A DNA stretch of 64,000 bases, from contig NZ_AUIG01000011.1 of the NCBI RefSeq assembly GCF_000423585.1, positions 62,001 to 126,000 on the forward strand, written 5' to 3'. The position numbers and the translations under genes are program-made. Below are positions 23,956 to 61,898 of the stretch, piece by piece. This stretch comes from Salinimicrobium xinjiangense DSM 19287. Its GTDB lineage: Bacteria > Bacteroidota > Bacteroidia > Flavobacteriales > Flavobacteriaceae. Every line of letters begins with the position of its first letter. Position 1 is the first letter of the stretch. The notes under the pieces are model-generated. The model worked only from the letters and a program-made list of their open reading frames with translations, made no database searches and was not told where the DNA came from.

Positions 23956-24588
23956 ATAAAAGTTTCCCGCAGGTCAACAACTATTCCCCATCTTCCGTCT
24001 ACCGACTACCGACTAACGACTAACGACTATTTTCACACTAAGCTCACAAAGTCAAAAAAGAGGAGCACAAAGAAAAGGCTCCGAAAATGTCATTTCGAAG
24101 GAGCTTTTTCGCGACTGAGAAATCTCAACTACCGTCTACCGTCTAAAGTCTACCGTCTAATTTCACGCAAAGCCCCCAAAGCACCACCGCAAAGAGCGCA
24201 AAGAAATCTTTCTTCCTGAACACTGATCACTGACCACTGATCACTTTTTTCCCGCAGATCACGCAGATCTTCGCAGAACAACCAATCCCTAATCACTATT
24301 CTCTAATTAACCTATTTTGGAATTTGGTGCTTGTAATTTGATATTTCGAATGAATGTCATTTCGAAGGAGCTTTTTCAGCGACTGAGAAATCTTAGTATC
24401 CAACTACAGTTTACCGTCTATCGTCTAAAGTCTAGCGTCTAATTTCTTGCAAAGCCCGCAAAGTTCAACCGCAAAGGCCGCGAACGCCTTCTGCCAATTG
24501 TTTATTGATCATTGGTAATTGAAAAATCACCAATTAACCAATCCCCAATTAACTAATTCACCAGAATGAGGTTTCCCGTAACTGCACC
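23956..24588. repeat. repeat-filled spacer with heptad arrays
   Basis: Heptad arrays TTCCGTC/TACCGAC/TAACGAC (23993-24027), TACCGTC/TAAAGTC (24130-24157) and TACCGTC/TATCGTC/TAGCGTC (24412-24439). Short TGTCATTTCGAAGG...GAGAAATC elements at 24088-24127 and 24355-24395. Copies of the GAGCACAAAG and CAGATCACGCAGATCTTCGC units and ACTGATC/ACTGACC heptads (about 24221-24245). No gene is seen. Confidence 0.75.
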
Positions 24589-24612
24589 TTAACAAAATTT
24601 TAATAGATTTAC
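24589..24612 (+). promoter_or_regulatory. recurring promoter-like element (copy at 24589)
   Basis: TTAACAAAATTT then TAATAGATTTAC, preceded by GGTTTCCCGTAACTGC. Located 107 bp before the HEPN-motif gene. Confidence 0.5.
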
Positions 24613-24718
24613 AAAAGCATCTAAAAATTTAAAGAAAAGTAAATTAGACCCTAATTCAGAAAAATGTCTCATCATTCTACAACTTGTAACAACTAGAGCT
24701 ATAATTCCAATTTAAAGT

Positions 24719-25945
24719 ATGAACAAGTATCTTAAAGTTTTAAAAGAAAACAACCCTAAAATAGAAATTGAAATAAAAGATGATGTTTTCCATATTTTAA
24801 ACCCTTGGAATGATAAATCGGTTTCATTTGTTTTAAAGAAGGGTCAAAGATTAAGTTCTTTGGAACATATTACCTTTCCTGAACAACTGGTTGCTCTTTT
24901 TAATAAAAACAAATCCGAATTAGAATTTATATACGGCCCAATTGATAAGCAAAGTAATCTAGTCACAAGAAGTTTTGATTTCATATTCAAGGGTGAAAAG
25001 TTTTATTGTTCTTTTGACGGTTTTTCAGATTCATTGAAACTAATTGCGAAATCATTCAAAGAGAATTCAACAGAAAGCCAAACAGATTATAGACATTTGC
25101 GGTTTTTGCGAGATTTGTTGACGGATAATTTTTATAAAGATTTCTTCAAGGAAACGATCAACACAAGCTTTTACGTAACGGGCAACTTTGAACTTATTGA
25201 CTTTGATTTTGTTGGTCTATCAAAATCCTTAAACTTTTATATGTCCTTCTTTGATAGAGGGACACCCAAAATAGTTATTCATGCTAAGGAATATGAAGAG
25301 GAGAAATATAAAAATCCGTGTCTAAACGAATTATTTGATACTTTCCCAAAGACCATTAATTCGACTAATATTGATTCAACTCTTCTAGACACCTTTATGG
25401 TGGCGAATCAAACTGAGAATGTTAGACTAAAGTTTATATTTTATTTCCAAGTTCTCGAATATGCTTCTTATTACTATTTGGATAAGAAAATTCAGGACAA
25501 AATACGGAAAACTATGAATGACCCTGAGATTTATGACAAATCCGATTATTTCTCCAAAACCTTAATTGAAGAATTAAAAGATCACTTTTCGCAGAAGGAT
25601 GATTCCACTAAGCTCGAAAAAACTATTCTTGAAAATTGCTCAATTAAGGATATTCAGAATGAAATTGAAGTTAATAAAGATTTCTTTTCAAAAGACCTCG
25701 AGTTCGAAGGAGGATTAAAGATTAATAGAATTTTAAAAGGGGAACACGCCATTGAAAATCTAAAAGAGGGGGATTTAATATTAATTAAAAATAATATTGA
25801 AAGAATTAGAAATGTGTTGGTTCATTTAAGAGAATCAAGAGAAAATAAGGTTATTCTACCTTCACAGAAGAACAATCATAAACTTCTTCCCTACTTATAT
25901 CTCATTCGAAGAATTGCAGAAAAAGTGGCAATAAATTTTTCTTAA
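24719..25945 (+). CDS. HEPN-motif protein, possible defence or toxin RNase
   Basis: 408 residues, visibly AT-rich in all codon positions compared with neighbours, which suggests separate acquisition. No signal peptide or membrane segment is seen. The N-terminal half (1-200) is a beta-rich region I do not recognise. The C-terminal half is helical and ends in ERIRNVLVHLRESRENKVILP, with the R-x4-H arrangement (Arg364, His369) of HEPN ribonucleases. The surrounding pattern (RNxLVHxREsR...P, then a helix LLPYLYLIRRIAEKV) resembles the C-terminus of a family of large uncharacterised HEPN proteins and of ApeA-type abortive-infection proteins. RNA cleavage during stress or phage infection is an inference; the gene has no antitoxin-like partner beside it. 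Confidence 0.6.
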   Translation: MNKYLKVLKENNPKIEIEIKDDVFHILNPWNDKSVSFVLKKGQRLSSLEHITFPEQLVALFNKNKSELEFIYGPIDKQSNLVTRSFDFIFKGEKFYCSFDGFSDSLKLIAKSFKENSTESQTDYRHLRFLRDLLTDNFYKDFFKETINTSFYVTGNFELIDFDFVGLSKSLNFYMSFFDRGTPKIVIHAKEYEEEKYKNPCLNELFDTFPKTINSTNIDSTLLDTFMVANQTENVRLKFIFYFQVLEYASYYYLDKKIQDKIRKTMNDPEIYDKSDYFSKTLIEELKDHFSQKDDSTKLEKTILENCSIKDIQNEIEVNKDFFSKDLEFEGGLKINRILKGEHAIENLKEGDLILIKNNIERIRNVLVHLRESRENKVILPSQKNNHKLLPYLYLIRRIAEKVAINFS

Positions 25946-26123
25946 ATAAGATGCCGATCGAGCAGTAAAAGGATTCTTGAATGTTTCATCCATGTTTGAA
26001 TAAATATTTAAGCTATTTTTAAAAAAATCTGATTAGTACGAGCTTTGTTTTTTCTCATTGGAATATTTTTTTGGCTGCAATGTAAATAAGTACTTTAAAA
26101 TTTTTATTAACCCCACCCCTTCT

Positions 26124-26159
26124 GTAACAAATGCTACACTTGTAGGTAACAAATGTTAC
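26124..26159 (+). promoter_or_regulatory. duplicated operator upstream of the efflux genes
   Basis: GTAACAAATGCTAC (26124-26137) and GTAACAAATGTTAC (26146-26159) are direct repeats spaced 22 bp start to start, two helical turns. The second is also an inverted repeat (GTAAC-AAAT-GTTAC). It ends 48 bp before the TolC start. This form suits a TetR- or MarR-type repressor, but no such gene is adjacent. Confidence 0.6.
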
Positions 26160-26207
26160 TGATAACGGGAGATGCTAAGGGTATTTTTGTCTCACAAATT
26201 TTAAGAG

Positions 26208-27524
26208 ATGAAAAGAACAAGAACCCTTGCCCTTATTCCCATACTGTTATTTAGCTTTCTCCTGCAGGCGCAGGAGACGGTGCGAATTGGGAAAAGGGAG
26301 ATCCTGGAAAGAGTACAGGAGAATAATAGTCAGCTAAGGATCTCACAACAGGAGTTCCTGGCAGCCCGGGCGCAGTACCGGCAGACCAACGCGGTCTTTT
26401 TACCTAACATAAGCGTCTCCCACACCGGGATGACCACTAATAATCCTCTCATGGCCTTTGGTTCCAGACTGAACCAGGAGCGCGTCACCCAAAGTGATTT
26501 CGATCCCGCCCGGCTGAATAACCCCGACCGTATCGATAATTTCGCGACCAAAGTGGAAGTTCAGCAGCCGCTTATTAACCTCGACGGCTTCTGGCAGCGT
26601 GGCGCTGCGAAGAACAAAATGGAAGCTACCGGGTTGCAGAGTGAACGCACCGGGGATTACATGAAACTCGAAACCGAAAAAGCCTATATGCAGCTGCAGC
26701 TCGCCCATAAAGCGGTGACTGTTTTAGAGCAGGCGCTGGAAACGGCTCAAGCCAACCTTAGACTTGCAGAGAACAATTTTAAGCAGGGATACCTGCAGCG
26801 TTCTGATGTGCTGGCAGTGGAAGTCCGCGTGACCGAGGTGAACAACCAGTTACAGTACGCCAGGAGCAATGTGAAGAATGCGAGCGATTACCTCATGTTC
26901 CTCATGGGCGATTCCATTGACGTGGTGCTCATTCCAAAAGATTCCCTCAGCGTACAGCTGAATCCCGTTACCACCCCTAAACTTCCCGGCGACCGTGCCG
27001 ATATCAAAGCCATGGAACTGGCTGCACAGGCACGCAGGAAAATGTACACGGCAGATCAGCTGTCATTCTTGCCGAGGCTTAATGCCTTTGGAAGTTATGA
27101 GCTCTATGATGACGAGATTTTCCAGGGCGACGCTAACGGATACATGGCCGGAGTCTCTCTGACCTGGGATATTTTTGACGGAAGCAAACGCTTTGGAAAA
27201 ACCCAGCAATCCAAAGCCGAATTCAAACAGGCAGAACTGGAACTGGAACAACACGTACACCAGAGTCAGCTGGAACTTAACCGCGCCACCCGCGCATTGA
27301 AGGATGCAGAGAACAAACTGCAGCTCACCCAACTGGCCCTGGAGCAATCCAAAGAAGCCCTGCGAATACGCAACAATCGCTATGAGCAAGGCCTGGAAAA
27401 AACAACCGATCTGTTAGGCGCCGAGACACAATATTCAGAAAAGCAATTGGAATACTACCAAACGGTATATGAATATAATTATGCGGTGGCGTATCTGGAA
27501 TTCCTTACGAGTAGTATTGAGTAG
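26208..27524 (+). CDS. TolC-family outer-membrane efflux protein
   Basis: 438 residues with a signal peptide ending LLQAQE (about 1-22). Two repeated outer-membrane-efflux (OEP) halves show the typical long alpha-helical barrel segments, for example LETEKAYMQLQLAHKAVTV and LELEQHVHQSQLELNRATRAL. The family-specific C-terminal pattern ETQYSEKQLEYYQTVYEYNYAVAYLE is present. It is the outer-membrane duct for the adaptor and RND pump encoded next; the three form a standard tripartite system. A duplicated operator lies just upstream. The order TolC-adaptor-pump is usual in Bacteroidota. Confidence 0.93.
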   Translation: MKRTRTLALIPILLFSFLLQAQETVRIGKREILERVQENNSQLRISQQEFLAARAQYRQTNAVFLPNISVSHTGMTTNNPLMAFGSRLNQERVTQSDFDPARLNNPDRIDNFATKVEVQQPLINLDGFWQRGAAKNKMEATGLQSERTGDYMKLETEKAYMQLQLAHKAVTVLEQALETAQANLRLAENNFKQGYLQRSDVLAVEVRVTEVNNQLQYARSNVKNASDYLMFLMGDSIDVVLIPKDSLSVQLNPVTTPKLPGDRADIKAMELAAQARRKMYTADQLSFLPRLNAFGSYELYDDEIFQGDANGYMAGVSLTWDIFDGSKRFGKTQQSKAEFKQAELELEQHVHQSQLELNRATRALKDAENKLQLTQLALEQSKEALRIRNNRYEQGLEKTTDLLGAETQYSEKQLEYYQTVYEYNYAVAYLEFLTSSIE

Positions 27525-27530
27525 TTAGCA

Positions 27531-27750
27531 GTTGTCAGTTGTGAGTTGTCAGTTGTGAGTTGTCAGTTGTGAGTTGTCAGTTGTGAGTTGTCAGTTGTGA
27601 GTTAACCGAGAACCGAGAACCGACAACCGAGAACCGACAACTGAGAACCGACAACTGAGAACCGACAACTGAGAACCGACAACCGAGAACTGAAAACCGA
27701 CAACCGACAACAACAAACCAAAAACAACAAACAACAAACAACAAACCATA
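27531..27750. repeat. heptad arrays in opposite orientation
   Basis: Five exact tandem copies of the 14-mer GTTGTCAGTTGTGA (27531-27600) are followed by fifteen heptads of the AACCGAC/AACCGAG/AACTGAG type (27604-27708), then AACAACA heptads to the start codon region. The first array read on the other strand is AACTGAC/AACTCAC, so the two arrays can partly pair as a long hairpin between the TolC and adaptor genes. Confidence 0.9.
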
Positions 27751-27754
27751 GAAA

Positions 27755-28957: not shown

Positions 28958-31900
28958 ATGAAAGAAGGATTAGCAGGCAAGATTGCCAAAGGCTTTATAA
29001 ATTCAAAACTGACGGTGTTGCTCATGATCGTGTTCATGATCGTGGGTGTGTACGCGTCGTTTTTAATTCCCCGCGAGGAAGAGCCGCAGATCGACGTGCC
29101 CATGGCCGACATTTTTGTAGGCTACCCGGGAGCCAGCCCTACCGAGGTGGAACAGCGCATTATCAAACCCCTGGAAAAGATGGTTTCCAATATTCCGGGT
29201 GTGGAGTACGTCTACTCTACCTCCATGGAAGAACAGGGGATGTTGATCGTGCAGTTCTACGTGGGCGAGGATATTGAACGTTCCTATGTGAAGCTCTACA
29301 ACGAGCTCATGAAGAATATGGACCAGTTCCCGCCAAATGTTACTCAGCCGCTGGTGAAGACGCGGGCTATTGACGATGTTCCGGTGCTGGGGCTTACCCT
29401 GTGGAGCGAAAATTATGATGATTACCAGCTGCGGCAAATGGCCAACGAGCTGCGGCACGAGATCGAAAAGGTGGAGGATGTTTCTATTGTGAACACCATT
29501 GGGGGCCGTGACAGGCAGCTGCGCGTGGTGCTCGACAAGGACCGGATGGCTGCCAGCGGAGTTGATATGCTGGGGGTTTCTGAAAAGATCAAAGCCTCGA
29601 ATCAGCAGCTTTCCTCCGGAAGTTTTGACCGCAACGACAGTGAAGTTCTGGTTAGCTCCGGAAGCTTTTTGGAATCTCCGGCAGATGTGGAGAACCTCAT
29701 CGTGGGCGTCAATAACGGGCAACCGGTATACCTGAAGCAAATTGCAACGGTACAGGACGGGCCAGAGATCTCAGATTCCTATGTGAACTTTGGATTTGGA
29801 CAGGCAATAAATGCTTCGGAATATCCCGGGGAATATCCTGCGGTCACCCTATCTGTAGCGAAGCGAAAGGGAGCCGACGCGATGAAGATCGCCGATGTGA
29901 TCCTGGAAAAAGTAGAACACCTGCAAACGAACCTTATACCCGAAGATGTGCACGTGGAAGTGACCCGAAACTACGGGGAAACTGCATCGCACAAAGTAGG
30001 AGAATTATTGCTGCACCTTATCGGTGCGATCATAGCCGTGACTCTTGTTGTGATGCTGGCTATGGGATGGCGCGGCGGACTGGTAGTATTCCTTTCGGTA
30101 CCCATCACCTTTGCCCTTACGCTGCTCAGCTATTACATGCTGGATTACACCCTGAACAGGATCACATTATTTGCCCTGGTTTTCGTAACCGGTATCGTGG
30201 TGGATGACTCGATCATTATTGCCGAGAACATGCACCGGCACTTCAAGATGAAACGCCTGCCGTTCAAACAGGCTGCACTATATGCCATCAACGAGGTGGG
30301 GAACCCAACTATCCTGGCGACCTTTACGGTAATTGCATCGGTACTGCCGATGGCCTTCGTAAGCGGATTGATGGGACCCTATATGAGCCCGATGCCAATT
30401 GGAGCTTCTATCGCGATGATCCTGTCACTGTTCGTGGCACTTACCATTACTCCGTATCTCGGATTCATCTTTTTGCGTGAAAAGGAGAAAAAAGGAAAAC
30501 CGGTAAAAGAGGCTCAAAAAATTGAAGATTCGATGATCTATCGCGTCTACAAACGCTTTGAGGAGCCGCTTATCGATAATCCGAAGATCCGTTGGGGATT
30601 CTTGGGTCTAACCGCCTTCCTTTTATTAGGATCTGTAGCCCTGTTCTTTACTAAAGACGTAGCCGTGAAAATGCTGCCTTTTGACAACAAGAATGAATTT
30701 CAGGTAGTGATCGATATGCCCGAAGGAACAACTTTAGAGAGAACAGCCGTAGTGACCAAAGAAGTAGGTCAATACCTAAGCGGAAGCGAACAGGTAGTGA
30801 ATTACCAGACCTACATTGGCACCTCTGCCCCTATCACCTTCAACGGACTCGTACGTCACTACGACCTGCGCGGAGCGAGCAACACCGCCGATATTCAGGT
30901 GAACCTGTTGCCTAAAGGCGACCGAAGCCTGCAGAGTCACGACATTGCAAAACTATTGCGCCCGGATATTCAGGCAATAGGAGATAAATACGGCGCAAAT
31001 ATCAAGCTGGTAGAAGTTCCGCCGGGACCTCCGGTATTATCAACTATAGTTGCGGAAGTCTACGGACCTGATTATGAAACACAGATCGCGCTGGCAGACA
31101 GTATTCAGACTATCCTTCACAACACAGAAGACGTGGTGGATATTGACTGGATGGTCGAAGCCGATCAGAAAGAATACAAGTTCGAGATCGATAAGGAAAA
31201 GGCGATGCTTTATGGAATCGCACCTCAGCAGATCGTGTACACGCTGAATTCTGCTTTGGGAGAAAGAGCGATCACGCAGCTGTATGACGAGGAAGCTACC
31301 CAGCGGGTAGGTATTGTCCTGGCACTTGATGAGGAGGAAAAATCCTCTGTTCAGGATATCATGCAGATAAACATCGCTTCCCAACAGGGACAGATGATCC
31401 CCATTGCCGACCTGGTAACGCCGACGGAAGTGATTAGGGACAAGAGCATCTATCGCAAGAATCAGAAGCGTGTGGTATATGTACTGGCCGATATGGCCGG
31501 AGAACTGGAGAGTCCGGTTTACGCCATCCTCGGAATGGAAGACAAACTAAAGCAGATTGAATTGCCTGCAGGATATGAGATCAGCGACCTGTATATGGGT
31601 CAGCCGCAATATGAAGATGACTATACCGTGAAATGGGACGGAGAATGGCAGATCACCTTAGAAGTATTCCGTGATCTTGGGATCGCATTTTTGGGAGTGA
31701 TCGTGATCATTTACATCCTCATCGTGGGCTGGTTCCAGAACTTCAGAGCCCCTATTGTGATGATGGTAGCCATTCCGCTATCGCTGATCGGGATCGTGCT
31801 GGGCCACTGGATCATGGGCGCCTTCTTTACCGCTACTTCCTTTATAGGAATGATCGCGCTCGCCGGGATCATGGTACGGAACTCGGTGCTGCTCATTGAC

Positions 31901-32203
31901 TTTGTGAACCTCCGACTCGAAGACGGAATTCCGTTGAAGCAGGCAGTGATCGAAGCCGGTGCCGTAAGAACAACTCCAATCCTGTTAACCGCAGGTACGG
32001 TAGTGATCGGAGCCTTCGTGATCCTCTTCGACCCAATTTTCCAGGGACTCGCTATCTCGCTGATGGGAGGAACGATCGTTTCAACCTTCCTTACGCTCCT
32101 GGTAGTGCCGTTGGTGTACTACATGATCGAGAGAAAGAAGTATGAAGACAGGGAGGAGAAACCGGAGGTTGTGGAAGAAAAAGAACCGGTAGAAGTGGAA
32201 TAG
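28958..32203 (+). CDS. RND-family efflux permease (AcrB/AcrD/AcrF type)
   Basis: 1081-residue inner-membrane proton antiporter. It has the usual twelve helices and two large periplasmic loops. The paired aspartates of the proton relay are in FVTGIVVDDSIIIAEN. The pattern GIMVRNSVLLIDF marks helix 10-11, and the C-terminus has a short acidic tail (EKPEVVEEKEPVEVE). The aspartate pair and length suit a hydrophobic/amphiphilic exporter (HAE) rather than a heavy-metal (CusA) pump, but the specificity is not certain. It follows the adaptor by 120 bp and is followed by repeat arrays. Confidence 0.94.
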   Translation: MKEGLAGKIAKGFINSKLTVLLMIVFMIVGVYASFLIPREEEPQIDVPMADIFVGYPGASPTEVEQRIIKPLEKMVSNIPGVEYVYSTSMEEQGMLIVQFYVGEDIERSYVKLYNELMKNMDQFPPNVTQPLVKTRAIDDVPVLGLTLWSENYDDYQLRQMANELRHEIEKVEDVSIVNTIGGRDRQLRVVLDKDRMAASGVDMLGVSEKIKASNQQLSSGSFDRNDSEVLVSSGSFLESPADVENLIVGVNNGQPVYLKQIATVQDGPEISDSYVNFGFGQAINASEYPGEYPAVTLSVAKRKGADAMKIADVILEKVEHLQTNLIPEDVHVEVTRNYGETASHKVGELLLHLIGAIIAVTLVVMLAMGWRGGLVVFLSVPITFALTLLSYYMLDYTLNRITLFALVFVTGIVVDDSIIIAENMHRHFKMKRLPFKQAALYAINEVGNPTILATFTVIASVLPMAFVSGLMGPYMSPMPIGASIAMILSLFVALTITPYLGFIFLREKEKKGKPVKEAQKIEDSMIYRVYKRFEEPLIDNPKIRWGFLGLTAFLLLGSVALFFTKDVAVKMLPFDNKNEFQVVIDMPEGTTLERTAVVTKEVGQYLSGSEQVVNYQTYIGTSAPITFNGLVRHYDLRGASNTADIQVNLLPKGDRSLQSHDIAKLLRPDIQAIGDKYGANIKLVEVPPGPPVLSTIVAEVYGPDYETQIALADSIQTILHNTEDVVDIDWMVEADQKEYKFEIDKEKAMLYGIAPQQIVYTLNSALGERAITQLYDEEATQRVGIVLALDEEEKSSVQDIMQINIASQQGQMIPIADLVTPTEVIRDKSIYRKNQKRVVYVLADMAGELESPVYAILGMEDKLKQIELPAGYEISDLYMGQPQYEDDYTVKWDGEWQITLEVFRDLGIAFLGVIVIIYILIVGWFQNFRAPIVMMVAIPLSLIGIVLGHWIMGAFFTATSFIGMIALAGIMVRNSVLLIDFVNLRLEDGIPLKQAVIEAGAVRTTPILLTAGTVVIGAFVILFDPIFQGLAISLMGGTIVSTFLTLLVVPLVYYMIERKKYEDREEKPEVVEEKEPVEVE

Positions 32204-32727
32204 AACAGAGTTGTGAGTTGTCAGTTGTCAGTTGTGGGTTGTGGATTGTGGGTTGCGAGTTGCGGGTTGCGGGTTGCGTGTTGTGAGTTAGGTTGCAATA
32301 CGATTGTCACACTGAGCCAGCAACTGCAGGGAGCGACGAGCCTGTCCTGAGTTTAGCGAAGGATCGAAGTGCTTTCTAAACGGTTGCTGGTGGTTAGTTG
32401 CCGGTGGAACCAAAAACCCTTCTCCCCCTTTAGGGGCCGGGGGGTATAACGAAGTACGAAGTTAGAATTACGAAGGAATGAACTAAAAAATACTAGAAGC
32501 CACAATACCTTTTTCGGCTCCTCCCGACACTTCGGGATAGGGCGGGGCAGAACGAAAAAAGAGATCGAAGACGAGCCTTTAACCGAGAACCGATAACTGA
32601 GAACAGACAACCGAGAACCGACAACCGAGAACCGAACCGAGAACCGAGAACTGAGAACCGACAACAGAAAACCGAACACCGAAAACCAACATTAAACCTT
32701 AATCCTTAGACCTTAAACATTTACAAG
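32204..32727. repeat. spacer with two heptad arrays and dispersed repeats
   Basis: Begins with GTTGTCA/GTTGTGG/GTTGCGG heptads (about 32210-32289). Next is a GTCACACTGAGC...GAAGGATCGAAGTG element (32310-32371), a CCCCCTTTAGGGGCCGGGGGG palindrome (about 32415-32436), and a second array AACCGAG/AACCGAC/AACTGAG (32581-32690) in the opposite sense. It repeats, more loosely, the plan of the array between the TolC and adaptor genes. Confidence 0.75.
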
Positions 32728-33033
32728 ATGAAACTACTAATAGTAACCAGCGTAGCCGCCTTTCAGAAGGATGTGCTAAAGCTCTTCAAAAAAGCAAAAA
32801 TTGAAGCCTTCAGCTCTTCGGAGATCGATGGCTATAAGAACGGAAATAACCTGGTGGCCACACAAAGCTGGTTTCCGGGGGAAAAGGGAGGCAATGAATC
32901 CTCCATGTTCTTCTCGTTCACAGATGAGGAGAAGATCACCGAATTCTTCAGCCATGTGCGTGAATTCAATAATAAACTGGAGACCAATAACCCTGTGCGT
33001 GCAGTGGTGGTCCCCATAGAACAATCGATCTAA
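32728..33033 (+). CDS. small PII-like protein next to the RND pump
   Basis: 101 residues: MKLLIVTSVAAFQKDVLKLFKKAKIEAFSSSEIDGYK opens a predicted beta-alpha-beta unit. The end, LETNNPVRAVVVPIEQSI, gives a final strand. Size and the predicted ferredoxin-like double beta-alpha-beta pattern resemble the PII/CutA superfamily, and I recall similar genes beside RND pumps in Flavobacteriaceae. No T-loop tyrosine or ATP-binding signature of true PII is evident. A sensor or regulator role for the pump is a guess. Confidence 0.6.
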   Translation: MKLLIVTSVAAFQKDVLKLFKKAKIEAFSSSEIDGYKNGNNLVATQSWFPGEKGGNESSMFFSFTDEEKITEFFSHVREFNNKLETNNPVRAVVVPIEQSI

Positions 33034-33093
33034 CAATGAACAATGATCAATTAACAATTAACTAATAACTATTAACCATTAACAATTAACTAT
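33031..33093 (+). repeat. nine exact heptads filling an intergenic gap
   Basis: TAACAAT, GAACAAT, GATCAAT, TAACAAT, TAACTAA, TAACTAT, TAACCAT, TAACAAT, TAACTAT follow each other without a break. They begin in the stop codon of the upstream gene and end one base before the next ATG. Confidence 0.9.
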
Positions 33094-47814: not shown

Positions 47815-48456
47815 CTAACTCCTCTCCCCTATCAACAGGGTATTACTCCTATAAACATCCTCTTTTTTCCGGAAATGTATTCCTAAAATGTCACTTTTGA
47901 GCAGGTAGTTTATCTGCTCGTCATGAGCGGAATTTACTCCGGCGTTGAAAAGTACTTTGCCACCGGGTTTTAGTAATCCGGCAATATTCTTCCAGAATTC
48001 AATTGAAAAGAATTGCTCCGGCACCTGCAGATCAATAAACAGATCGATAATAATAAGTCCGAATTCTTCTGTTGTTGATTTCACATATAGTTCAGCATCT
48101 TCACAGATAAGTGCAAGAGGTTGATGTGCTTCTATTCCGAATTCGTTGATAGCGATCTCAATGATTGCTTTATCCAGTTCCACGGCAGTGACCTTTCCAT
48201 AGTATCCGTATTTGTTCCGCAGCAGGGGAACTGCACTTCCGCCACCCAGTCCTAAAAGCAGCACCGGGGCTTCACGATCTGCACGGATTTCTGCGAGGCC
48301 GCGGTCCAGCACCTCCTGCAATGCTCCATAAGAGTAATTCGCATTTGCGCTGTCAAGTACTTTCCGTCCATTGATCCAGGTAACTTCCAGCTTTCCGCTG
48401 TAGTGAGATTCAAACTTTTTGGTAAGTGGCCACAGGTAACTCAAAGATTTTTTCAT
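47815..48456 (-). CDS. spermidine synthase-like SAM-dependent methyltransferase
   Basis: 213 residues from the ATG at 48456 (MKKSLSYLWPLTKK); the longer frame adds six residues of no character. The Rossmann core has PVLLLGLGGGSAVPLL (motif I), VTAVELDKAIIEIA (acidic residue for the ribose), ICEDAELYV and IIIDLFIDLQVPEQFF. These are arranged as in the spermidine/spermine synthase superfamily, but the N-terminal lid and the aminopropyl-acceptor residues are poorly kept. Probably a methyltransferase of unknown substrate. Convergent with the BASS gene. Confidence 0.75.
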   Translation of the reverse strand: MKKSLSYLWPLTKKFESHYSGKLEVTWINGRKVLDSANANYSYGALQEVLDRGLAEIRADREAPVLLLGLGGGSAVPLLRNKYGYYGKVTAVELDKAIIEIAINEFGIEAHQPLALICEDAELYVKSTTEEFGLIIIDLFIDLQVPEQFFSIEFWKNIAGLLKPGGKVLFNAGVNSAHDEQINYLLKSDILGIHFRKKEDVYRSNTLLIGERS

Positions 48457-49269
48457 AGCAATGCAAAAATACAATTTAGTGATCAGTGATTGGTGGTCAG
48501 TGATCAGAAGTTTGTAGTGCGGAGCTATATCCCAGAAACAGATTTGAAGATGTGATGATTTGAAAATTTGAAGATCAAGAAAGTAAATTCCGAATACCAG
48601 GCATTTACCCGCCGAAGCTTGTGCGAAGGAGGGCCAAATTCAAATTGGAGACAAAATTCTTTGCGACCTTAGCGATTATCTCTGCGATCTCTGCGAGAAA
48701 TTTTTGAAGGACAGAAATTTTTCCGTTTTACCCCTCCCTCTAAAGGGAGCCGGAAAAATTTTCAAGAGATTTAGAGCATGAGTGAATAAAACATATCTGT
48801 GAATCCGTGGCTTTTTCTCAATGAACAATGATCAATAAACAAGGAACAGGATAAAATCTAAGCACCGATAAAAAAACATTTTAACTTAGTGATTCCACTC
48901 ACGGCTTCGACCATTTTTCCACTCCCTGTCGGTCGTGAAAATAGCTCAGCCTGACACCAGAGCTGCAATCTTTTTAAATTTCAAGCACCAAATCCCAAAA
49001 TCAGATTTGAAAAAATGTGATGATTTGAAAATTTGAGGATGAAGAAAGTAAATTCTAAATACCAGGCACCAAATCACAAATTCCAAAACTGATAGCTTAC
49101 TCAGACAAAGTCTTGGCTCCAGGCTCTAGGCTCTTGGTTCTTATTTTTTGGCTCTTAATTCTTTTTTTCGACCCGCAACCGGCAACCGGGAACAGAATTT
49201 TTGCAACACGGGAGATTTCTGCTCGTCTTTATAGAAAGAGTAAACATCAATCAATCAAAAAACCGAACA
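48457..49269. repeat. repeat-filled spacer, about 800 bp
   Basis: AGTGATC-type heptads (48478-48505). Two copies of a GATGTGATGATTTGAAAATTTGA unit (about 48547 and 49015). A reversed GGTAAAT...GGAGGGCCAAATTC unit (48601-48645) and a reversed TCTGCGAGAAATTT unit. A CCCCTCCCTCTAAAGGGAG hairpin (about 48730). Heptads GACCCGC/AACCGGC/AACCGGG/AACAGAA (49170-49197). No gene before 49270. Confidence 0.65.
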
Positions 49270-49944: not shown

Positions 49945-50073
49945 TCACTGTAGCTTTTCATAACCAGGTTGAGCTAAGTACAAGGTCATTTAAAATTAGA
50001 CTCTGAATTCGCGGGATTATGATTGCTCCAGTCGCTAAAAGGTTTCTGCGCAATGGGGTAAGGCCACATACGT

Positions 50074-50115
50074 AACCCGTAACCCGGAACCGGCAACAGG
50101 AAGCAGGGAACAGAA
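50074..50115 (+). repeat. heptad array
   Basis: AACCCGT, AACCCGG, AACCGGC, AACAGGA, AGCAGGG, AACAGAA in register. The unit composition resembles 52221-52262 and 52380-52414. Confidence 0.8.
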
Positions 50116-52016: not shown

Positions 52017-52414
52017 AGTTAATTGAATTAACCTTTCGATTGTCCCGCAAAGGCAGTAATTACCTTTCTAATTTACATCGTTTTAGATCATTAATTAAAT
52101 TTTGGCTTTTATATCTTTATCATAAGATTAAATCTCAAGCACCAAATTCCAAATTCCAAATAGATTAGCTTACTCAAACAAGTCTTAACTCCTGGTTCTT
52201 GGTCCTTGATTCTTTTTCACAACCCGCAACCGGCAACCGGCAACAGGTAACAGGAAACAGAAATTCCAAGCATTTACCCGCCGGAGCCATAGTAGGCGAA
52301 GGAGGGCCAAATTCCAACCAGAATAGCGTACTCAGTCAAAAACCTAAATCATGGCTCTTGATTCTTTTTCACACCCCGCAACTGGGAACCGGCAACCGGC
52401 AACAGGGAACCGGT
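52017..52414. repeat. repeat-filled spacer
   Basis: Heptad arrays AACCCGC/AACCGGC/AACAGGT (52221-52262) and AACTGGG/AACCGGC/AACAGGG/AACCGGT (52380-52414, running into the stop codon of the S9 peptidase). Between them lie a reversed GGCGAAGGAGGGCCAAATTC unit (about 52290-52315) and two copies of a TTCTTGGT...TTGATTCTTTTTCACA stretch. No gene. Confidence 0.7.
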
Positions 52415-54433
52415 TTACTCCCTGTATTTCTCAAACCACGCCAAAATAGCCGCTACTTTAGCAACAAGATTACTGGGCCTGTTGGCAATTCCGTGTGAGG
52501 CACCGGGGATGCGAACCATGGCTGCATCAACACCCTCCAGTTTAAGCGCTGTATAATATTGTTCAGATTCTGCTATTGGTGTGCGGTAATCTTCCTCTCC
52601 CGTTAAAAGCATCGTAGGTGTGGTCACATTCTCCACAAGAGAGATGGGGGATCGCTTCATATAATGTTCAGGATCTTCCCAAGGCTTGGAAGGGAACCAG
52701 TATTTATAAAAGAAACCCGGATTATCTGCATAAAGCACAAAGCTGTACCAGTTGATCACCGGCTTTGCCACAACGGCTGCACTAAACCGATTGTTCTTTC
52801 CAATGATCCATGCCGTTAGTACTCCGCCGCCGCTGCCTCCGGTTACGAACAGGTTCTTTTCCTCAATAAAGCCTTTTTGAATTACAGCATCTACCCCACT
52901 CATGAGATCGTCATAATCCTGATTTGGATAGTTGTGATGGATCAGGTTTCCGAATTCTGCACCATAACCACTGCTCCCCCGCGGATTGGCGTAAAGCACC
53001 ACATAACCTGCCGCGGCAAAAGCCTGTATCTCTGCTGAAAAAACAGATCCGTAGCTCGCGAAAGGGCCACCGTGGATCTCAAGGATAAAAGGGTATTTCT
53101 TGTTCGGATCAAAGTCTGGCGGAGTCACCAGCCAGCCCTGAATTTCCCTTTGATCAAAAGAAGATTTCCAGGTCATCTCTTGCACATTTCCCAGTTCGCG
53201 GTAGGAGAAAAGATCTTCATTTAGGTTCGTAATTCGTATTACATTTCTTCCGTCCTTCACGGCAAGATCGGCGGGATGTGCCGGAGTACCGAGTGTGTAA
53301 GCCAGCTTTCCGTTATTAGAAACTGAAAAAGCAGCCGCATTATAGGGTCTCCCGAGGGAAAGTCCGCCAAGATCTTCGGCAACTGTTTCGGTTTTTCCTT
53401 TCAGGTCGATGTGTCCAATTTTCGTTTTTCCGCGGTCGTTGTAGTGGAAATAAAGGCCTCTGCCCTTTCCATCCCACTGAATATTCTCTATATCCCTGTC
53501 AAAATCAGCCGACAGATGCCGTATGTTTGACCCATCAGGATTCATAACGTAAAGTTCGCTCATCTGGTAACCCAGGTATTCATCGTCATAGCCGGTGAAG
53601 GCGATGAGATCCCCTTTGGGAGAAACTTCCGGACTGCTGTCGGGTCCTAGTCTTTCAGTAAGCGGTTTTATTTCTCCGGAAGCTACTTGCAGCTCATAAA
53701 TTTCAGAGTTATTCGGCTCCAGGTCCGAGTCCTCATGCAGATTGGCCGAGAAATATAACTTGCTGTCATCTGCTGACCATTCCGGCGCACCGAGGTTTTC
53801 ATTTTCAGAAGTTAGCTGTCTGGGAGTTCCACCGTCAGTCGAAACGATAAAGATCTGGTTGTTTCCGGATTTTAGGTATCCCTGCCCGTCCCCCCGGTAC
53901 TTAAGCTGATCAATATAAACAGGGGCATCATTCCATTTCGCACCTTCGGGCTTCTGCGGAAGTTTAACAATGGACTCCTGCTGCTGCGGAACGAACATGG
54001 TAAAAGCCAGTTGATCACCTTTATTGGACCAGCTCACATTGCCGGGGGTTTTTGAGGTATTGGTAAGCGGAAAAGTTTCCCGGGTATCCATCCACATGAG
54101 AAAAAGTTTCATTTTCTCATCCTGCTGATTTGAAAGGAAGACGATCTTGCTCCCATCAGGTGACCAGCGCGGGGAAACATCATTTTGATTTCCGGAAGTA
54201 AGCGGCCGGTTCTGACTACCATCGGCATTTACGATCCAGAGATTGGAATGACTGCGATCTGTCATAATATCTTTAAAATTCCTCACGTAAATGATCTTCT
54301 TTCCATCGGGAGAGATCTGGGGGTCTGAAACAAATTCCAGATCAAAGAAATCTGTGAGCTCCAGCGGAGATTTTTGAGCAGAGACAAGCGTACCTACAAA
54401 AAGTAGCAGGAACAAGGGAAATATTTTTTTCAT
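52415..54433 (-). CDS. S9-family prolyl oligopeptidase-like serine peptidase
   Basis: 672 residues with a signal peptide ending TLVSAQ. An N-terminal beta-propeller (about 30-400) shows WD40/TolB-like turns such as PQISPDGKKIIYVRN and PRWSPDGSKIVFLSN. A C-terminal alpha/beta-hydrolase domain has HGGPFASYGSVF as the oxyanion region. The triad is Ser534 in GGSGGG, Asp615 in GEEDYRTP and His647 in GASHGI. This suits a dipeptidyl- or acylaminoacyl-peptidase acting on peptides in the periplasm. Probably monocistronic; its 3' end abuts a heptad array. Confidence 0.93.
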   Translation of the reverse strand: MKKIFPLFLLLFVGTLVSAQKSPLELTDFFDLEFVSDPQISPDGKKIIYVRNFKDIMTDRSHSNLWIVNADGSQNRPLTSGNQNDVSPRWSPDGSKIVFLSNQQDEKMKLFLMWMDTRETFPLTNTSKTPGNVSWSNKGDQLAFTMFVPQQQESIVKLPQKPEGAKWNDAPVYIDQLKYRGDGQGYLKSGNNQIFIVSTDGGTPRQLTSENENLGAPEWSADDSKLYFSANLHEDSDLEPNNSEIYELQVASGEIKPLTERLGPDSSPEVSPKGDLIAFTGYDDEYLGYQMSELYVMNPDGSNIRHLSADFDRDIENIQWDGKGRGLYFHYNDRGKTKIGHIDLKGKTETVAEDLGGLSLGRPYNAAAFSVSNNGKLAYTLGTPAHPADLAVKDGRNVIRITNLNEDLFSYRELGNVQEMTWKSSFDQREIQGWLVTPPDFDPNKKYPFILEIHGGPFASYGSVFSAEIQAFAAAGYVVLYANPRGSSGYGAEFGNLIHHNYPNQDYDDLMSGVDAVIQKGFIEEKNLFVTGGSGGGVLTAWIIGKNNRFSAAVVAKPVINWYSFVLYADNPGFFYKYWFPSKPWEDPEHYMKRSPISLVENVTTPTMLLTGEEDYRTPIAESEQYYTALKLEGVDAAMVRIPGASHGIANRPSNLVAKVAAILAWFEKYRE

Positions 54434-54984: not shown

Positions 54985-54991
54985 CTTACCC

Positions 54992-56790: not shown

Positions 56791-56815
56791 TAACAGTTAA
56801 GAATGCTCAAAACGA

Positions 56816-58381: not shown

Positions 58382-58423
58382 TTCAAATGATTTTCTGCAG
58401 ATAAAATTATATAATTTCATACA

Positions 58424-58511
58424 ACACCCCCTAATAAAACAGGTTAAAGTTCTAAAATTTGCATAATTAATAATTTACACCCCCTAAATTATTGGGGTGT
58501 AAATTATTAAT
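58424..58511 (-). promoter_or_regulatory. 18-bp perfect palindrome and repeated ACACCCCCTAA upstream of glnK-amt
   Basis: ATTAATAATTTACACCCC (58466-58483) and its exact complement (58494-58511) flank the 10-base loop CTAAATTATT. ACACCCCCTAA occurs in the left arm (58477) and again at 58424, 53 bp (five helical turns) apart. The cluster lies 43-130 bp before the glnK start, the right place for an operator or a leader structure. Confidence 0.6.
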
Positions 58512-59005
58512 AACCTATTTTTAATTAGATGATAAAGAGAAGAGGTTCAAAAATGATCCTTTAAAGAAAAAAGTCCGATTTTCCCCTTTTTGACAGGTAA
58601 GCAACGGACAAATTTTTAATGTAAAATGACAGAAAACTCAGGCAGGTAAGAAAACCGTAAATAGCTTCAGCTATATACAGATTAAATATCATTCTTATTC
58701 GGCCGCTCCGGGACGTGGTTATCTTTCGGAAAGATCACCCGCTTTATCATAGATCATATACCTAAAAATAATGCGAACGTTGAGATAGTCCATGTTGCAG
58801 GACCTTCTTTTTTTGGTAGAATATATCCGGGGATTAAACCTCAATAATCAACTGAAAAATCGGTAATTTAAAAAGGAAAGCAATCAAATATCTCTAGCCG
58901 CCATTGAATGCTCTAAAACAAAAGGTAAAGAGAATAGAGTAATCAAAAATATTCTAAGATCAAATAAGCATATTCGGTTCTAAAACATTTATTATTAACT
59001 GCTGC
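58512..59005. other. 494-bp region without a recognised gene
   Basis: AT-rich, with no convincing open frame, tRNA or strong hairpin seen. It lacks the dispersed repeat families common elsewhere in the window. It separates glnK (start side) from the 3' end of manA. Confidence 0.5.
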
Positions 59006-59977
59006 TTATGCCACAAACACTTCCAGCAGCTCTGCTCCTTCGGATTTTATTTGCACCTCATTATTTTCTGCCGGAATAAGCAGGGTTTGCCCCTGGACTA
59101 TTCTTTCTGAATTTCCGTTCACGCTGATTACCGCTTCCCCACTTACACACATATAGATGACAAAGGAATCAAGGTGGGAGTAGTCTTTCCGAATGTTTCC
59201 GCTCACCGGAAGGAAATTTGTTGTGAAGTATTCACAGCTGGCAACATTAGCGGACTGATTTTCAACCCGTGAATATTCTTTTCGGAAATCATCTTTCTTT
59301 TCGAAATCAATGGCATCAAGAGCAAGATCTGTATGCAGTTCCCGGGAATTCCCCTGTTCATCGACTCTATTCCAGTCGTAAATACGGTAGGTAATATCTG
59401 AAGTTTGCTGAATCTCTGCTAATAATACTCTGGCGCCAATAGCATGAACTTTTCCGGTGTTGATAAAAAAGGCGTCTCCCTTTTTCACTTTTTCGAAATT
59501 CAGCAGCTCGGTGATCTTTCCGGAATTGAGATGCTCCAGGTATTCAGCTTTAGAAATGCTCTTTTTGAAGCCTATATTGATCTCTGCTCCCTCATCTGCC
59601 TGTATGATGTACCACATTTCTGTTTTTCCGAAGGAGTTATGCCTCTTTTTAGCAAGTTCATCATTTGGATGCAGCTGCACCGAAAGTTCTGTATTTGCAT
59701 CAATGAATTTTATAAGCAGGGGAAATTCAGGACCAAACTTCTCAAAATTCTTCTCCCCTAAAAGCCGTTCTCCATACTGCTCTAAAAGGGTATTTAAGGT
59801 CTCTCCTTTTAAGGGTCCGTTTTCCACAACCGAAATATTGCCTTTCACTCCCGAAATCTCCCAACTTTCCCCGGTTCTTTCAGAAGTTGATGGCTTATTA
59901 AGGATTTGTTTTAGTTTATTTCCACCCCAGATCTTTTCCTTGAGAATGGGTTGAAAACGGATAGGATAATTAAGCAT
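59006..59977 (-). CDS. manA: mannose-6-phosphate isomerase, class I (short type)
   Basis: 323 residues from the ATG at 59977 (MLNYPIRFQPILKEKIWGGNKL). The longer open frame to 60151 runs into a tRNA gene and is rejected. The zinc-binding motif of the cupin core is visible in LSVQLHPNDELAK, and the second metal region in GKVHAIGARVLLAEIQQTSDITYRIYDW. The reaction interconverts fructose-6-P and mannose-6-P, feeding GDP-mannose synthesis. It lies alone; the tRNA terminator precedes it on the same strand. Confidence 0.93.
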   Translation of the reverse strand: MLNYPIRFQPILKEKIWGGNKLKQILNKPSTSERTGESWEISGVKGNISVVENGPLKGETLNTLLEQYGERLLGEKNFEKFGPEFPLLIKFIDANTELSVQLHPNDELAKKRHNSFGKTEMWYIIQADEGAEINIGFKKSISKAEYLEHLNSGKITELLNFEKVKKGDAFFINTGKVHAIGARVLLAEIQQTSDITYRIYDWNRVDEQGNSRELHTDLALDAIDFEKKDDFRKEYSRVENQSANVASCEYFTTNFLPVSGNIRKDYSHLDSFVIYMCVSGEAVISVNGNSERIVQGQTLLIPAENNEVQIKSEGAELLEVFVA

Positions 59978-60079
59978 TTTTAGCTGATTGGAATTGCAAA
60001 GATAAAAAAAGCCGGTCCGCTTTCTATGCAAAAAGACGATAGAGTCTTCAGGTCTTATATTTAAGAAAATAGCGGAAAT

Positions 60080-60105
60080 AAAAAACCTCTCAGTTTCCTG
60101 AGAGG
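60080..60105 (-). terminator. terminator after tRNA-Leu
   Basis: CCTCTCAG (60086-60093), tetraloop, CTGAGAGG (60098-60105). The minus strand continues into five T residues (60081-60085). It lies eight bases past the tRNA 3' end. Confidence 0.92.
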
Positions 60106-60112
60106 CTTTTTG

Positions 60113-60194
60113 TGCGGGCGAGAGGACTCGAACCTCCACACCTTGCGGCACTAGATCCTAAGTCTAGCGTGTCTACCAATTCCACCACGCCCGC
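60113..60194 (-). tRNA. tRNA-Leu (anticodon UAG)
   Basis: Minus-strand cloverleaf: acceptor GCGGGCG/CGCCCGC, D-arm with GGTAGAC, anticodon stem CTAGA/TCTAG around the loop CTTAGGA (anticodon TAG in DNA), a long variable arm (TGCCGCAAGGTGT) as in class II tRNAs, and TPsiC arm GGTTCGAGTCC. Length 82 with discriminator A. The following bases are CA rather than CCA, so CCA is added enzymatically. Confidence 0.96.
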
Positions 60195-60321
60195 CTGGTA
60201 TTTACGCTGCTCATGCCTTTCGGGAATTTCCCGGCGGGCAGGCCCGCGTTGATAATTTCAATAAGTTTGCTTGTTGTAAGCGGATGCAAATATAAGTATA
60301 AGTTTGAATCTGCAAATAGGA

Positions 60322-60362
60322 AAATAAAAATTTTTCTCCCTGATGGAGAAAAATTTTTATTT
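60322..60362. repeat. perfect 18-bp palindrome
   Basis: AAATAAAAATTTTTCTCC (60322-60339), loop of five, and its exact complement (60345-60362). It lies between the tRNA-Leu start and the divergent M20 dipeptidase gene. Symmetric T runs follow the GC part on both sides, so it could end transcription in either direction or bind a dimeric protein. Confidence 0.7.
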
Positions 60363-60473
60363 GGTATTGAGATATGAGTAGTGAGTATCGAGATTTTCCA
60401 TACTCCTACCAATACTGAAGACTAATTACTCAATACAATTTTTTACCTTTACTTTCTTACCAAAAAACAAAGC

Positions 60474-61874
60474 ATGCAAGACATAAAAAATTATGTAGAT
60501 CAGAACAAAGAGCGCTTTATAGATGAGCTGATTCAGCTTCTGAAAATTCCTTCAATCAGCGCTGACTCGAAGTATAAAAATGACCTTTTAAACACTGCCC
60601 AAGCCGTAAAGCAAAGTTTACTTGATGCCGGTTGCGATGTAGCCGAGATCCATGAAACCCCCGGACATCCCGTGGTCTATGGGGAGAAAATTATTGATGA
60701 GAACTTACCCACGGTTCTTGTTTATGGTCATTACGATGTGCAGCCGCCAGATCCTCTTGAGCTATGGGAGAGTCCGCCGTTTGAGCCGGTGATCAAAAAA
60801 ACCCAGACTCACCCCGAAGGTGCCATTTTTGCCAGGGGAGCCTGTGACGATAAGGGCCAGATGTACATGCATGTGAAGGCACTGGAGTATATGACGAAAA
60901 ACAACGAACTCCCTTGTAATATCAAGTTCATGATCGAAGGTGAAGAAGAAGTTGGAAGTGAGCATCTGGGCTGGTTTATAGAGATGAACCGGGAAAAGCT
61001 GCAAAACGACGTCATCCTCATAAGTGATACCGGAATGATCGCCAAAGATACTCCCTCAGTTACTACCGGTCTGCGCGGACTCAGTTATATGGAAGTGGAA
61101 GTGACGGGGCCAAACCGCGATCTCCACAGCGGACTCTACGGTGGGGCGGTAGCCAATCCAATTAATGTACTTTCTAAGATGATCGCCTCCCTGCAGGATG
61201 AAGATAACCGTATCACTATTCCGGGATTTTATGATGATGTAGTGGAATACAGCGAAGAGGAAAGAGCAAAAATGGCCGAAGCTCCTTTTGACCTGGAGGA
61301 ATATAAAAAGAAACTGAACATAGAAGATGTGCAGGGTGAGGCAGGTTATTCCACCCTCGAACGCGCTTCTATTCGTCCCACTCTTGATGTAAACGGCATC
61401 TGGGGCGGATATATTGGAGAAGGTGCCAAAACGGTGTTGCCTTCAAAAGCTTACGCAAAGATCTCCATGCGTTTGGTAAGTGACCAGGACTGGAAAAAGA
61501 TCAGTCAGCTATTCACCAAACATTTTGAAAGTCTGGCGCCAAAGTCTGTAAAGGTGAAGGTGACTACCCATCATGGCGGACAAGCCTATGTGACACCCAT
61601 CGATACCCTGGAATACCAGGCGGCCAATGATGCATATGCTGAAGTTTTTGGTAAGGATCCTATTCCGCAGCACAGTGGAGGAAGCATTCCTATTGTTTCT
61701 TTATTCGAAAAGGAGCTCAACAGCAAGACTATCCTAATGGGCTTCGGACTCGACACAGATGCTATCCATTCGCCGAATGAGCACTTCGGAATATGGAATT
61801 ATCTGAAAGGCATTGAAACCATTCCCTATTTCTTCAAGCATTTCACTAAATTGAAACAAGCGGAGAAAAAGTGA
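60474..61874 (+). CDS. M20-family dipeptidase
   Basis: 466 residues, cytosolic. The di-zinc site shows as VLVYGHYDVQPPDP (His and bridging region), GACDDKGQMY (bridging Asp), MIEGEEEVGSEHL (general base Glu-Glu), ILISDTGM (Asp) and the last His in TDAIHSPNEHFGIWNY. The lid domain (about 200-360) is the peptidase M20 dimerisation type. Length and motif spacing suit the CNDP/DUG1-like dipeptidase group, which cleaves dipeptides such as Cys-Gly. Monocistronic, with heptads and a strong terminator after it. Confidence 0.92.
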   Translation: MQDIKNYVDQNKERFIDELIQLLKIPSISADSKYKNDLLNTAQAVKQSLLDAGCDVAEIHETPGHPVVYGEKIIDENLPTVLVYGHYDVQPPDPLELWESPPFEPVIKKTQTHPEGAIFARGACDDKGQMYMHVKALEYMTKNNELPCNIKFMIEGEEEVGSEHLGWFIEMNREKLQNDVILISDTGMIAKDTPSVTTGLRGLSYMEVEVTGPNRDLHSGLYGGAVANPINVLSKMIASLQDEDNRITIPGFYDDVVEYSEEERAKMAEAPFDLEEYKKKLNIEDVQGEAGYSTLERASIRPTLDVNGIWGGYIGEGAKTVLPSKAYAKISMRLVSDQDWKKISQLFTKHFESLAPKSVKVKVTTHHGGQAYVTPIDTLEYQAANDAYAEVFGKDPIPQHSGGSIPIVSLFEKELNSKTILMGFGLDTDAIHSPNEHFGIWNYLKGIETIPYFFKHFTKLKQAEKK

Positions 61875-61898
61875 TCAGTGGTCGGTGATCAGTGATCA
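61871..61898 (+). repeat. four heptads beginning in the stop codon
   Basis: GTGATCA, GTGGTCG, GTGATCA, GTGATCA, starting one base before the TGA of the dipeptidase gene. Confidence 0.8.

Follow-up and report, generated by a model that had tools for sequence, protein, structure and literature searches.

What generates, places and orients the runs of seven-base units that recur between the genes of Salinimicrobium? The question is raised by a 64,000-nucleotide stretch of the genome of S. xinjiangense DSM 19287 (Flavobacteriaceae, marine, 3.76 Mb; contig NZ_AUIG01000011.1, positions 62,001 to 126,000, hereafter the window and numbered from its first letter), in which a sequence-only reading had noticed spacers composed of in-register heptanucleotides. 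Analysis of 464 kb of the genome, of congeners and of other Bacteroidota reveals that these arrays sit preferentially at the ends of genes, most strongly at stop codons, and that close to genes they have a strand polarity which, on the sense strand, is opposite at starts and stops. As for what lies behind this arrangement, we lean slightly towards the view that the repeats grow in steps of 7 bp in untranslated gene ends while their orientation is filtered by selection, perhaps via the likeness of the AAC-bearing strand to a translation leader. This view covers growth, placement and orientation, and the choice of seven as the unit length lies outside it.

The seven-base period and its specificity

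Self-match at lag 7 is 0.322 in the spacers of the window, while 200 dinucleotide shuffles give 0.270 (z 16), and lags 14 and 21 are raised as well; coding DNA has a lag-7 self-match of 0.249. With a score cut of 11 we list 32 arrays in the window, which occupy 1,417 of its 13,428 bp of spacer and are present in 12 of the 39 spacers of at least 50 bp, so the earlier statement that many spacers carry such runs was fair, while the description of the intergenic DNA as built from heptamers overstated the case. In 464 kb of the genome there are 107 lag-7 segments, compared with 0.43 in shuffled sequence and with 0–10 at any other lag between 3 and 13, which is the genome-wide excess that the sequence-only reading had named as the check on its claim. 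Only one lag-7 segment is found in 374 kb of called coding DNA, indicating that units whose length is not a multiple of three are kept out of genes.

Part of the sequence sampled is biased towards arrays. In the window and in stretches L121, L124 and L127 (three of 20 stretches from the same genome) arrays were known or suspected beforehand, the efflux-operon loci of genomes G001, G003, G005 and G010 were chosen because the window operon has arrays, and matches to AACYTTR are present in seven of ten G350 stretches and one of ten G221 stretches. Figures that we call unselected were recomputed without the array-biased stretches; those for stop and start placement, triplet counts, complementarity, unit classes, the polarity at each kind of gene end, exact runs, leader AAC counts, the skew of non-array DNA, the lag-7 signal near starts without arrays and dispersed repeats include them, and counts pooled across species also include orthologous arrays. 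Unselected stretches of the window genome (46.5 kb of spacer) contain 33 lag-7 segments against 0.2 in shuffles. Similarly, the congeners G006 and G011 (40 even stretches) have 27 against 0.8 and 35 against 1.2, where the shuffled expectation shifts with the random seed (0.6 or 1.2 for lag 7 on the same G011 stretches), and lags 4–6 and 8–12 give 0–4 segments in unselected stretches of three species. Smaller unselected samples yielded eight lag-7 segments in G003, two in G010, two in G001, none in G005, seven in G221 and one in G350. Exact self-match runs of at least 12 bp, counted in seven species, tell the same story, with 72 at lag 7 and 66 at lag 14 compared to eight at each of lags 8 and 15, two each at lags 11 and 12 and 0–1 at lags 4, 5, 6, 9, 10 and 13. 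Around AcrB-like genes, 80 loci hold 53 segments at lag 7, 2–5 at lags 4–6 and 13 at lag 8, and when the two Salinimicrobium loci are set aside, at a slightly lower threshold, there are 46 arrays in 25 of the 78 loci. The arrays are therefore long simple sequence repeats in the sense that a single unit length lies far above statistical expectation, and general microsatellite slippage is excluded because period 7 is enriched together with nearly no other short period.

Once multiples of seven are set aside, the strongest remaining signal is at lags 8 and 15. Shorter 8-bp arrays (TCAAATCT/AGATTTGA) occur in the window at 22316–22355 and 48540–48575 and also in L124, and some arrays of ATTGGTG switch between periods of 7 and 8 bp.

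The units are similar inside one locus and differ from locus to locus throughout the genome. The 240 arrays of seven Salinimicrobium species fall into 104 consensus classes, of which ACTGATC, AACAATT and AACCTTG are the commonest, and AAATTCC is another recurrent family. Alternating units (CAGTTGT/GAGTTGT, or TATTGAG/TAGTTAG) suggest duplication in 14-bp steps, and the presence of 14- and 21-bp higher-order units suggests local homogenisation. The sequence-only reading had proposed a single ancestral process with local homogenisation; a genome-wide period-7 process with such homogenisation is borne out, while one common ancestral form is not, given the number of classes. Some unit families extend beyond the genus in a patchy distribution, three consecutive AACYTTR units being matched in 42 of 345 Bacteroidota genomes and three AGTGRNC units in 27 of 345, although the reversed control patterns, which are heptamer repeats themselves, also match in some of these genomes. 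Four Bacteroidota genomes (G112, G124, G132 and G147) have about 170–340 matches each to the reversed control pattern and appear to be very rich in heptamers.

Placement and polarity at gene ends

Where in the spacers do the arrays sit? Among the 238 arrays of seven species, 58 are found no more than 7 bp from a stop codon, where uniform placement of each array within its own spacer predicts 10.7 and the highest count in 20,000 simulations is 24. The preference at starts is weaker (15 arrays within 7 bp against 7.4 expected, p 0.002, same species), and among arrays within 60 bp of a gene 90 are on the stop side and 34 on the start side. The stop codon itself is often overlapped, as 31 of 76 stop contacts extend at least 3 bp into the gene. 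One candidate reason for keeping arrays after stops, a supply of stop codons in all frames, was rejected, with 7.3 stop triplets per 100 bp on the sense strand against 6.6 on the antisense strand (35 versus 30 arrays). In several convergent spacers, seen and not counted, the array lies between the stop codon and a terminator-like hairpin.

Arrays no more than 15 bp from a gene end carry an excess of G over C on the strand that leads outward from the gene, and this holds for starts and stops alike. Over all Salinimicrobium stretches the ratio of arrays with and without this outward excess is 74:17, made up of codirectional stops (35:11), codirectional starts (17:2), convergent stops (19:4) and divergent starts (3:0), and it is 48:10 in unselected stretches (p 5e-7). 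More than 60 bp from gene ends the polarity vanishes (23:22, unselected stretches). Since pooled counts include orthologous arrays we also give figures by genome: the direction is alike in all nine, and it is individually significant in G000 (25:6), G011 (19:3) and G350 (12:1). Non-array DNA has no such skew after stops and a weak one before starts. In terms of triplets, arrays within 60 bp show AGT 186:17 on the sense strand after stops and AAC 129:12 on the sense strand before starts. Start-side arrays also carry fewer start-codon triplets on the sense strand (2.4 per 100 bp) than on the other strand (7.2 per 100 bp; 9 versus 24 arrays, p 0.014). The sense-strand skew at the start of a gene is thus the opposite of that at its stop, and no single strand-wide mutation bias can therefore account for it. 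Replication strand or transcription-coupled mutation alone would be insufficient for the same reason, which points to selection at gene boundaries; Rho loading and R-loop mutation were further candidates considered.

Comparison among species tells how stable these positions are. The AcrB-like protein of the window has its best named matches, at 97%, in S. sediminis and S. nanhaiense, and the efflux operon that encodes it can be followed across nine species; the genome collection searched contains 12 genomes of the genus. The spacer before hlyD ends with AAC-type heptamers in all nine, with units resembling AACCTTG, AACAACA or AACCGAC, GTT-type units open the spacer downstream of acrB in all six species of the alignment there, and the hlyD–acrB spacer (100–124 bp) is free of arrays in nine of nine. 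At the loci followed, array position and orientation are hence kept while the unit turns over. Array length differs as well: the array at 61875 has about 3.5 units in the window genome, as it does in G010, and G005 and G006 have about one unit there, none of these being a strain-level pair. The nine genomes compared are too far apart to show a clean polymorphism of plus or minus 7 bp between strains, no pair exceeding about 92% identity in the acrB-like gene.

Proposed selection on orientation and its rivals

How could such arrays arise and be oriented? In the scenario that we favour, a 7-bp duplication would arise in dispensable untranslated DNA at a gene end, and the array would then lengthen or shorten in 7-bp steps via replication slippage or unequal exchange. 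Local homogenisation would create the 14- and 21-bp higher-order units, and point mutations would yield new unit types with register kept. Selection would then filter the survivors, leaving nearly none in coding DNA and none in the short hlyD–acrB spacer. A strand with much AAC, little G and few start codons, like a Bacteroidota translation leader, would be kept where it faces starts and excluded after stops, so one rule may suffice as a filter: an AAC-type strand would be favourable upstream of a start and a hazard downstream of a stop. The leader likeness is visible at 960 starts without arrays, where AAC counts are 40–46 at positions -13 to -10 compared with about 15 further upstream, and GTT counts are 7–16 compared with about 17. 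In Flavobacterium johnsoniae, A at -12/-13 is reported to promote initiation (PMC6847099), and the phase of AAC in our arrays is no more than suggestive of a lock to the start codon.

Several observations weigh against this scenario. Ordinary slippage would also favour units of 1–6 bp and lags 4–6 are not enriched; slippage itself is unobserved, the closest of the nine genomes being about 92% identical in the acrB-like gene. Among 92 orthologous spacer pairs outside the window-operon loci, five have arrays in both members, seven in one only and 80 in neither. The polarity reaches significance alone in just three of nine genomes, of which G350 is partly selected, and gene ends for both placement and polarity rest on a simple ORF (open reading frame) caller outside the window; within the window we used its ORF list, some entries of which, such as 15249–15893, the caller missed. 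In other genera (78 loci, arrays within 60 bp) the sign is the same and non-significant (11:6 at stops, 8:2 at starts), and arrays more than 60 bp from stops lean the opposite way (2:9, p 0.065). The leader rule fits the start side better than the stop side, where we infer the selection, and the phasing of AAC with the -12 motif is weak (10 of 15 arrays in three phases, with orthologues that are not independent). Finally, genes without arrays have no lag-7 signal near their starts; period 7 as a general property of leaders was rejected on that observation.

Could the two polarities instead be the two arms of one structure? Arrays would then be arms of intercistronic hairpins, a GTT-type arm after the stop pairing with an AAC-type arm before the next start, and the structure would be selected as RNA or cruciform. 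The window has such a stop-to-start hairpin with heptad arms at 27529–27746 (complementarity score 41), where the second array is partly complementary to the preceding one. In nine of 11 Salinimicrobium species the moxR–DUF58 spacer (L264–L274, 81–100 bp) has heptads on at least one of its two sides, and in those nine it folds with z of -2.1 to -5.9 despite differing sequence, while G002 and G009 have neither heptads nor fold. Complementarity within codirectional Salinimicrobium spacers is 10.1 versus 7.8 for swapped arms (156 of 5000 shuffles reach 10.1). However, period-7 arms are found in only four of 38 strong codirectional stems in Salinimicrobium, and convergent spacers lack complementarity (5.9 versus 6.9 swapped) although their polarity is just as strong (19:4). 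Mean fold z is -1.21 in codirectional Salinimicrobium spacers that have arrays (n=19), no better than the -1.88 of those that lack them (n=60 of 377 taken). In G350, six of 12 strong codirectional stems have period-7 arms and spacers with arrays fold better (mean z -5.05, n=10, versus -2.05, n=43, p 0.018), in a sample partly chosen for arrays since seven of its ten stretches were picked around array matches; exchanging the arms in G350 leaves the pairing no worse (17.9, versus 17.2 for a spacer's own arms). Fold stability of the sense strand does not exceed that of the antisense strand either (9 of 19, and 5 of 10 in G350). A general RNA hairpin, or a palindrome similar to repetitive extragenic palindromic (REP) elements, is ruled out as the cause by complementarity and folding; pairing holds for a subset, and as an account of the arrays at large we consider it unlikely.

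An equally unlikely account starts from the other end of the gene, with ribosomal protein bS1, or some other protein with an OB fold, as a putative ligand that would land on the 5'-side arrays and enhance translation by binding AAC every 7 nt, and with arrays on the 3' side as the tolerated reverse strand. AAC in 29 array-bearing starts indeed peaks at -11, -18, -25 and -32 (6, 6, 6 and 7 occurrences) and the start-side polarity is strong (17:2 at codirectional starts, 15 bp or closer). A discussion of TAACTGA repeats before starts names S1, Csp and Csr proteins as candidates (PMC4679880), and binding of bS1 to an A-rich region is mentioned as speculation in the F. johnsoniae work (PMC6847099). 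Against this stand the stop-side majority of gene-proximal arrays (90 versus 34), the lack of a period-7 signal at starts without arrays, and a phase concentration that is weak and driven by orthologues. Quite unlikely is also an extension of this idea to a heptad code at gene boundaries of Bacteroidota, in which AAC every seven bases would form an extended landing site for the multiple OB-folds of bS1, the reverse, non-initiating orientation would follow stops, and growth by 7 nt would tune expression with phase kept; the ribosomes of this phylum do without Shine-Dalgarno pairing.

A derivation of the arrays from dispersed mobile or composite repeats, as parts or ends copied from place to place in the genome, is improbable, even though the window genome taken by itself would argue for it. 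There, dispersed repeats are found in 26 of 51 spacers with arrays versus 22 of 151 without, spacers of length 150–700 contain a dispersed repeat of at least 25 bp in 13 of 32 cases with arrays versus 10 of 90 without (p 0.001), and one cassette that includes a CTGATCA array is present twice, near 15000 and near 24200. The link disappears in the congener G011 when spacers are matched for length (6 of 20 versus 37 of 164, p 0.58), the 240 arrays belong to 104 consensus classes, and orthologous sites carry different units. Mobile-element ends, which the sequence-only reading had listed as a full explanation that would refute its proposal, do not explain the arrays, the association being seen in one genome and not in another. 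The weakest idea, that a single ancestral heptamer (A/T)AC(C/T)GnC spread and diversified, is largely refuted and highly improbable, because this form, said earlier to fit nearly all units, accounts for seven of the 32 arrays in the window and for 10 of the 119 sampled from the genome (versus 1.1% of random heptamers, so enriched, yet a minority), and because the recurrent families AACCTTG, ACTGATC, AAATTCC and AACAATT are not one form. In its favour, besides the enrichment, some unit families recur across genera.

Known heptamer repeats and the arrays of the window

Heptamers reportedly lead among longer bacterial repeats, and the literature, as far as the sources cited here go, offers conjecture only on the cause. 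Long simple sequence repeats with units of 5–11 (LSSR5-11; Mrazek 2007, as cited in PMC4679880 and PMC4692102) are the general category, and Mrazek's idea, relayed in PMC4679880, is that 7 nt is the length contacting the polymerase. A close precedent is the study by MacGregor (2015, PMC4679880), which reports direct repeats of the heptamer TAACTGA in Beggiatoaceae, Cyanobacteria and five Bacteroidetes. For Gramella and Aequorivita it describes long arrays that include 'other heptamer direct repeats', and for Elizabethkingia 'larger assemblages of heptamer repeats'. The earlier suggestion that such a diversified set was undescribed in flavobacteria was therefore too strong. By that account, 12 of 14 TAACTGA sets of Flexibacter litoralis are forward before a start and one set is reversed right after a stop, the same polarity rule as in Salinimicrobium, which Microcystis does not follow, and indels between two related Cyanothece strains are mostly in 7-nt increments. 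Like the TAACTGA repeats, the AAC-type strand of Salinimicrobium arrays is forward before starts, at divergent as well as codirectional ones. The differences are that the TAACTGA study, as we have it, deals with one unit, centred on starts in Beggiatoaceae, while Salinimicrobium has many units, a preference for stops and a polarity at both gene ends measured against controls; TAACTGA itself is absent from the 40 commonest of the 104 classes.

The repeats GGGAATC and GGGGA(T/C)T of Xanthomonas and Nostoc (Rehm 2015, PMC4692102) are likewise intergenic heptamer arrays, described as varying strongly in length and sequence among close species at the same genes. They are G-tracts that form G-quadruplexes, and most Salinimicrobium units lack G-tracts, although two arrays in our sample bear the Nostoc unit (class GGGGATT). 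An ATTGGGG/ATTGGTG array of that class lies at about 9346–9400 of L127. The short tandemly repeated repetitive (STRR) sequences of Calothrix and Nostoc, of which the Calothrix heptamers are mentioned in PMC4692102, are also tandem heptanucleotides in a different phylum, and the likeness considered here is that of unit length. Many of our imperfect arrays would escape a survey such as that of Mrazek and Huang (2014, PMC4060949), which by its description counts heptamers present at least three times in a row. Heptamer arrays are thus a known kind, Bacteroidetes included, while for their anchoring to stop codons, their two-ended polarity and heptad arrays in Salinimicrobium we found no account among the open-licence PMC papers that our searches listed. 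Salinimicrobium makes a strong case, with period 7 at about 30 to 170 times the shuffled level in three species and units of 4–6 and 9–10 near background. The genus also lets the same sites be followed from one related species to the next, and the cause of the seven-base length and of the polarity is testable in a culturable flavobacterium.

The main arrays of the window are collected in Table 1. All those that the sequence-only reading had listed are present. The arrays placed at 23993 (five units), 15032, 24221 and 61871 are as it described them, that at 24130 has the four units claimed, one of them TAAAGTC, and all fifteen units of 27604–27708, given as AACCGAC-type, fit AACYGAV. The run at 33031–33093 does consist of nine in-register units, of which six are strictly TAACnnT, and those at 22272, 4812, 49170 and 50074 have just three to four or so clean units each, the last running on imperfectly to six.

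Table 1. Heptanucleotide arrays of the window, with position, strand and relation to neighbouring genes.
Array	Positions	Strand	Context
AGTGGGC/AGTGCGC, ~3.5 units	4812-4836	+	4 bp past stop of ORF 4358-4807; score 10, below cut 11
TATTCAA/TATAAAA, 7 units	14447-14496	+	
CTGAACA/CTGACCA	15026-15055	+	second copy of composite cassette
TTGGTGC, ~3-4 units	22272-22301	+	
ATTGTTA/ATTGATT	22434-22472	+	38 bp before ATG at 22511
CCGTCTA/CCGACTA/ACGACTA, 6 units	23988-24029	+	
CTACCGT, 4.4 units	24129-24159	+	
CTGATCA/CTGACCA	24216-24245	+	inside composite cassette recurring at ~15000-15090
TACCGTC-type	24405-24441	+	
3'-side array, CAGTTGT/GAGTTGT alternating, 10.7 units	27529-27603	+	starts 4 bp past stop of OEP (TolC-like) gene 26208-27524
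5'-side array, 15 AACYGAV then AACAACA/AACCAAA-type units	27604-27746	+	ends 8 bp before HlyD-like ATG at 27755
3'-side array, GAGTTGT/GGGTTGC, 11.7 units	32208-32289	+	4 bp past stop of AcrB-like gene 28958-32203
5'-side arrays, AACCGAS then AACCTTA-type	32581-32721	+	end 6 bp before ATG of ORF 32728-33033
TAACAAT-type, nine units	33031-33093	+	first 3 bp double as stop codon of ORF 32728-33033
AGTGATC	48478-48507	.	adjoins start of minus-strand gene 47815-48474
ACCGGCA, ~3 units	49171-49193	+	
CGTAACC/GGCAACA, six imperfect units	50071-50113	.	
CAACCGG/TAACAGG, 6 units	52220-52263	.	
CCGGTTC/CCTGTTG (sense strand)	52380-52413	-	1 bp past stop of S9 peptidase gene 52415-54433
TCAGTGG/TCGGTGA/TCAGTGA	61875-61899	+	directly past stop of M20 peptidase gene 60474-61874, then terminator-like hairpin

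The ORF at 32728–33033 (101 aa), which has arrays at both ends, has no Pfam match. The composite cassette is present in two copies (14990–15100 and 24180–24300), each consisting of CGCAAAGAGCGCAAAG 9-mers, the CTGATCA heptamer array and then CAGATCACGCAGATCTTCGCAGAA. A dispersed element, TTTACCCGCCG...GCGAAGGAGGGCC, lies beside CCAAATT/CCAAGCA heptamers at about 48600–48650 and at 52270–52313 as well as in L127 and L135, and recurs in spacers of the window's genome and of G001. Palindromes made of a C-run, TTTAG and a G-run (CCCCCTTTAGGGGG type) and GTCACnCTGAGC elements lie at about 32420–32445 and in spacers of L019, L022 and L024; whether an orthologous spacer has them differs from species to species. 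An Rfam search of the window at gathering score matched one tRNA only and no array to an RNA family; the tRNA gene is on the minus strand at 60113–60194 and overlaps the 5' end of the listed ORF 59006–60151.

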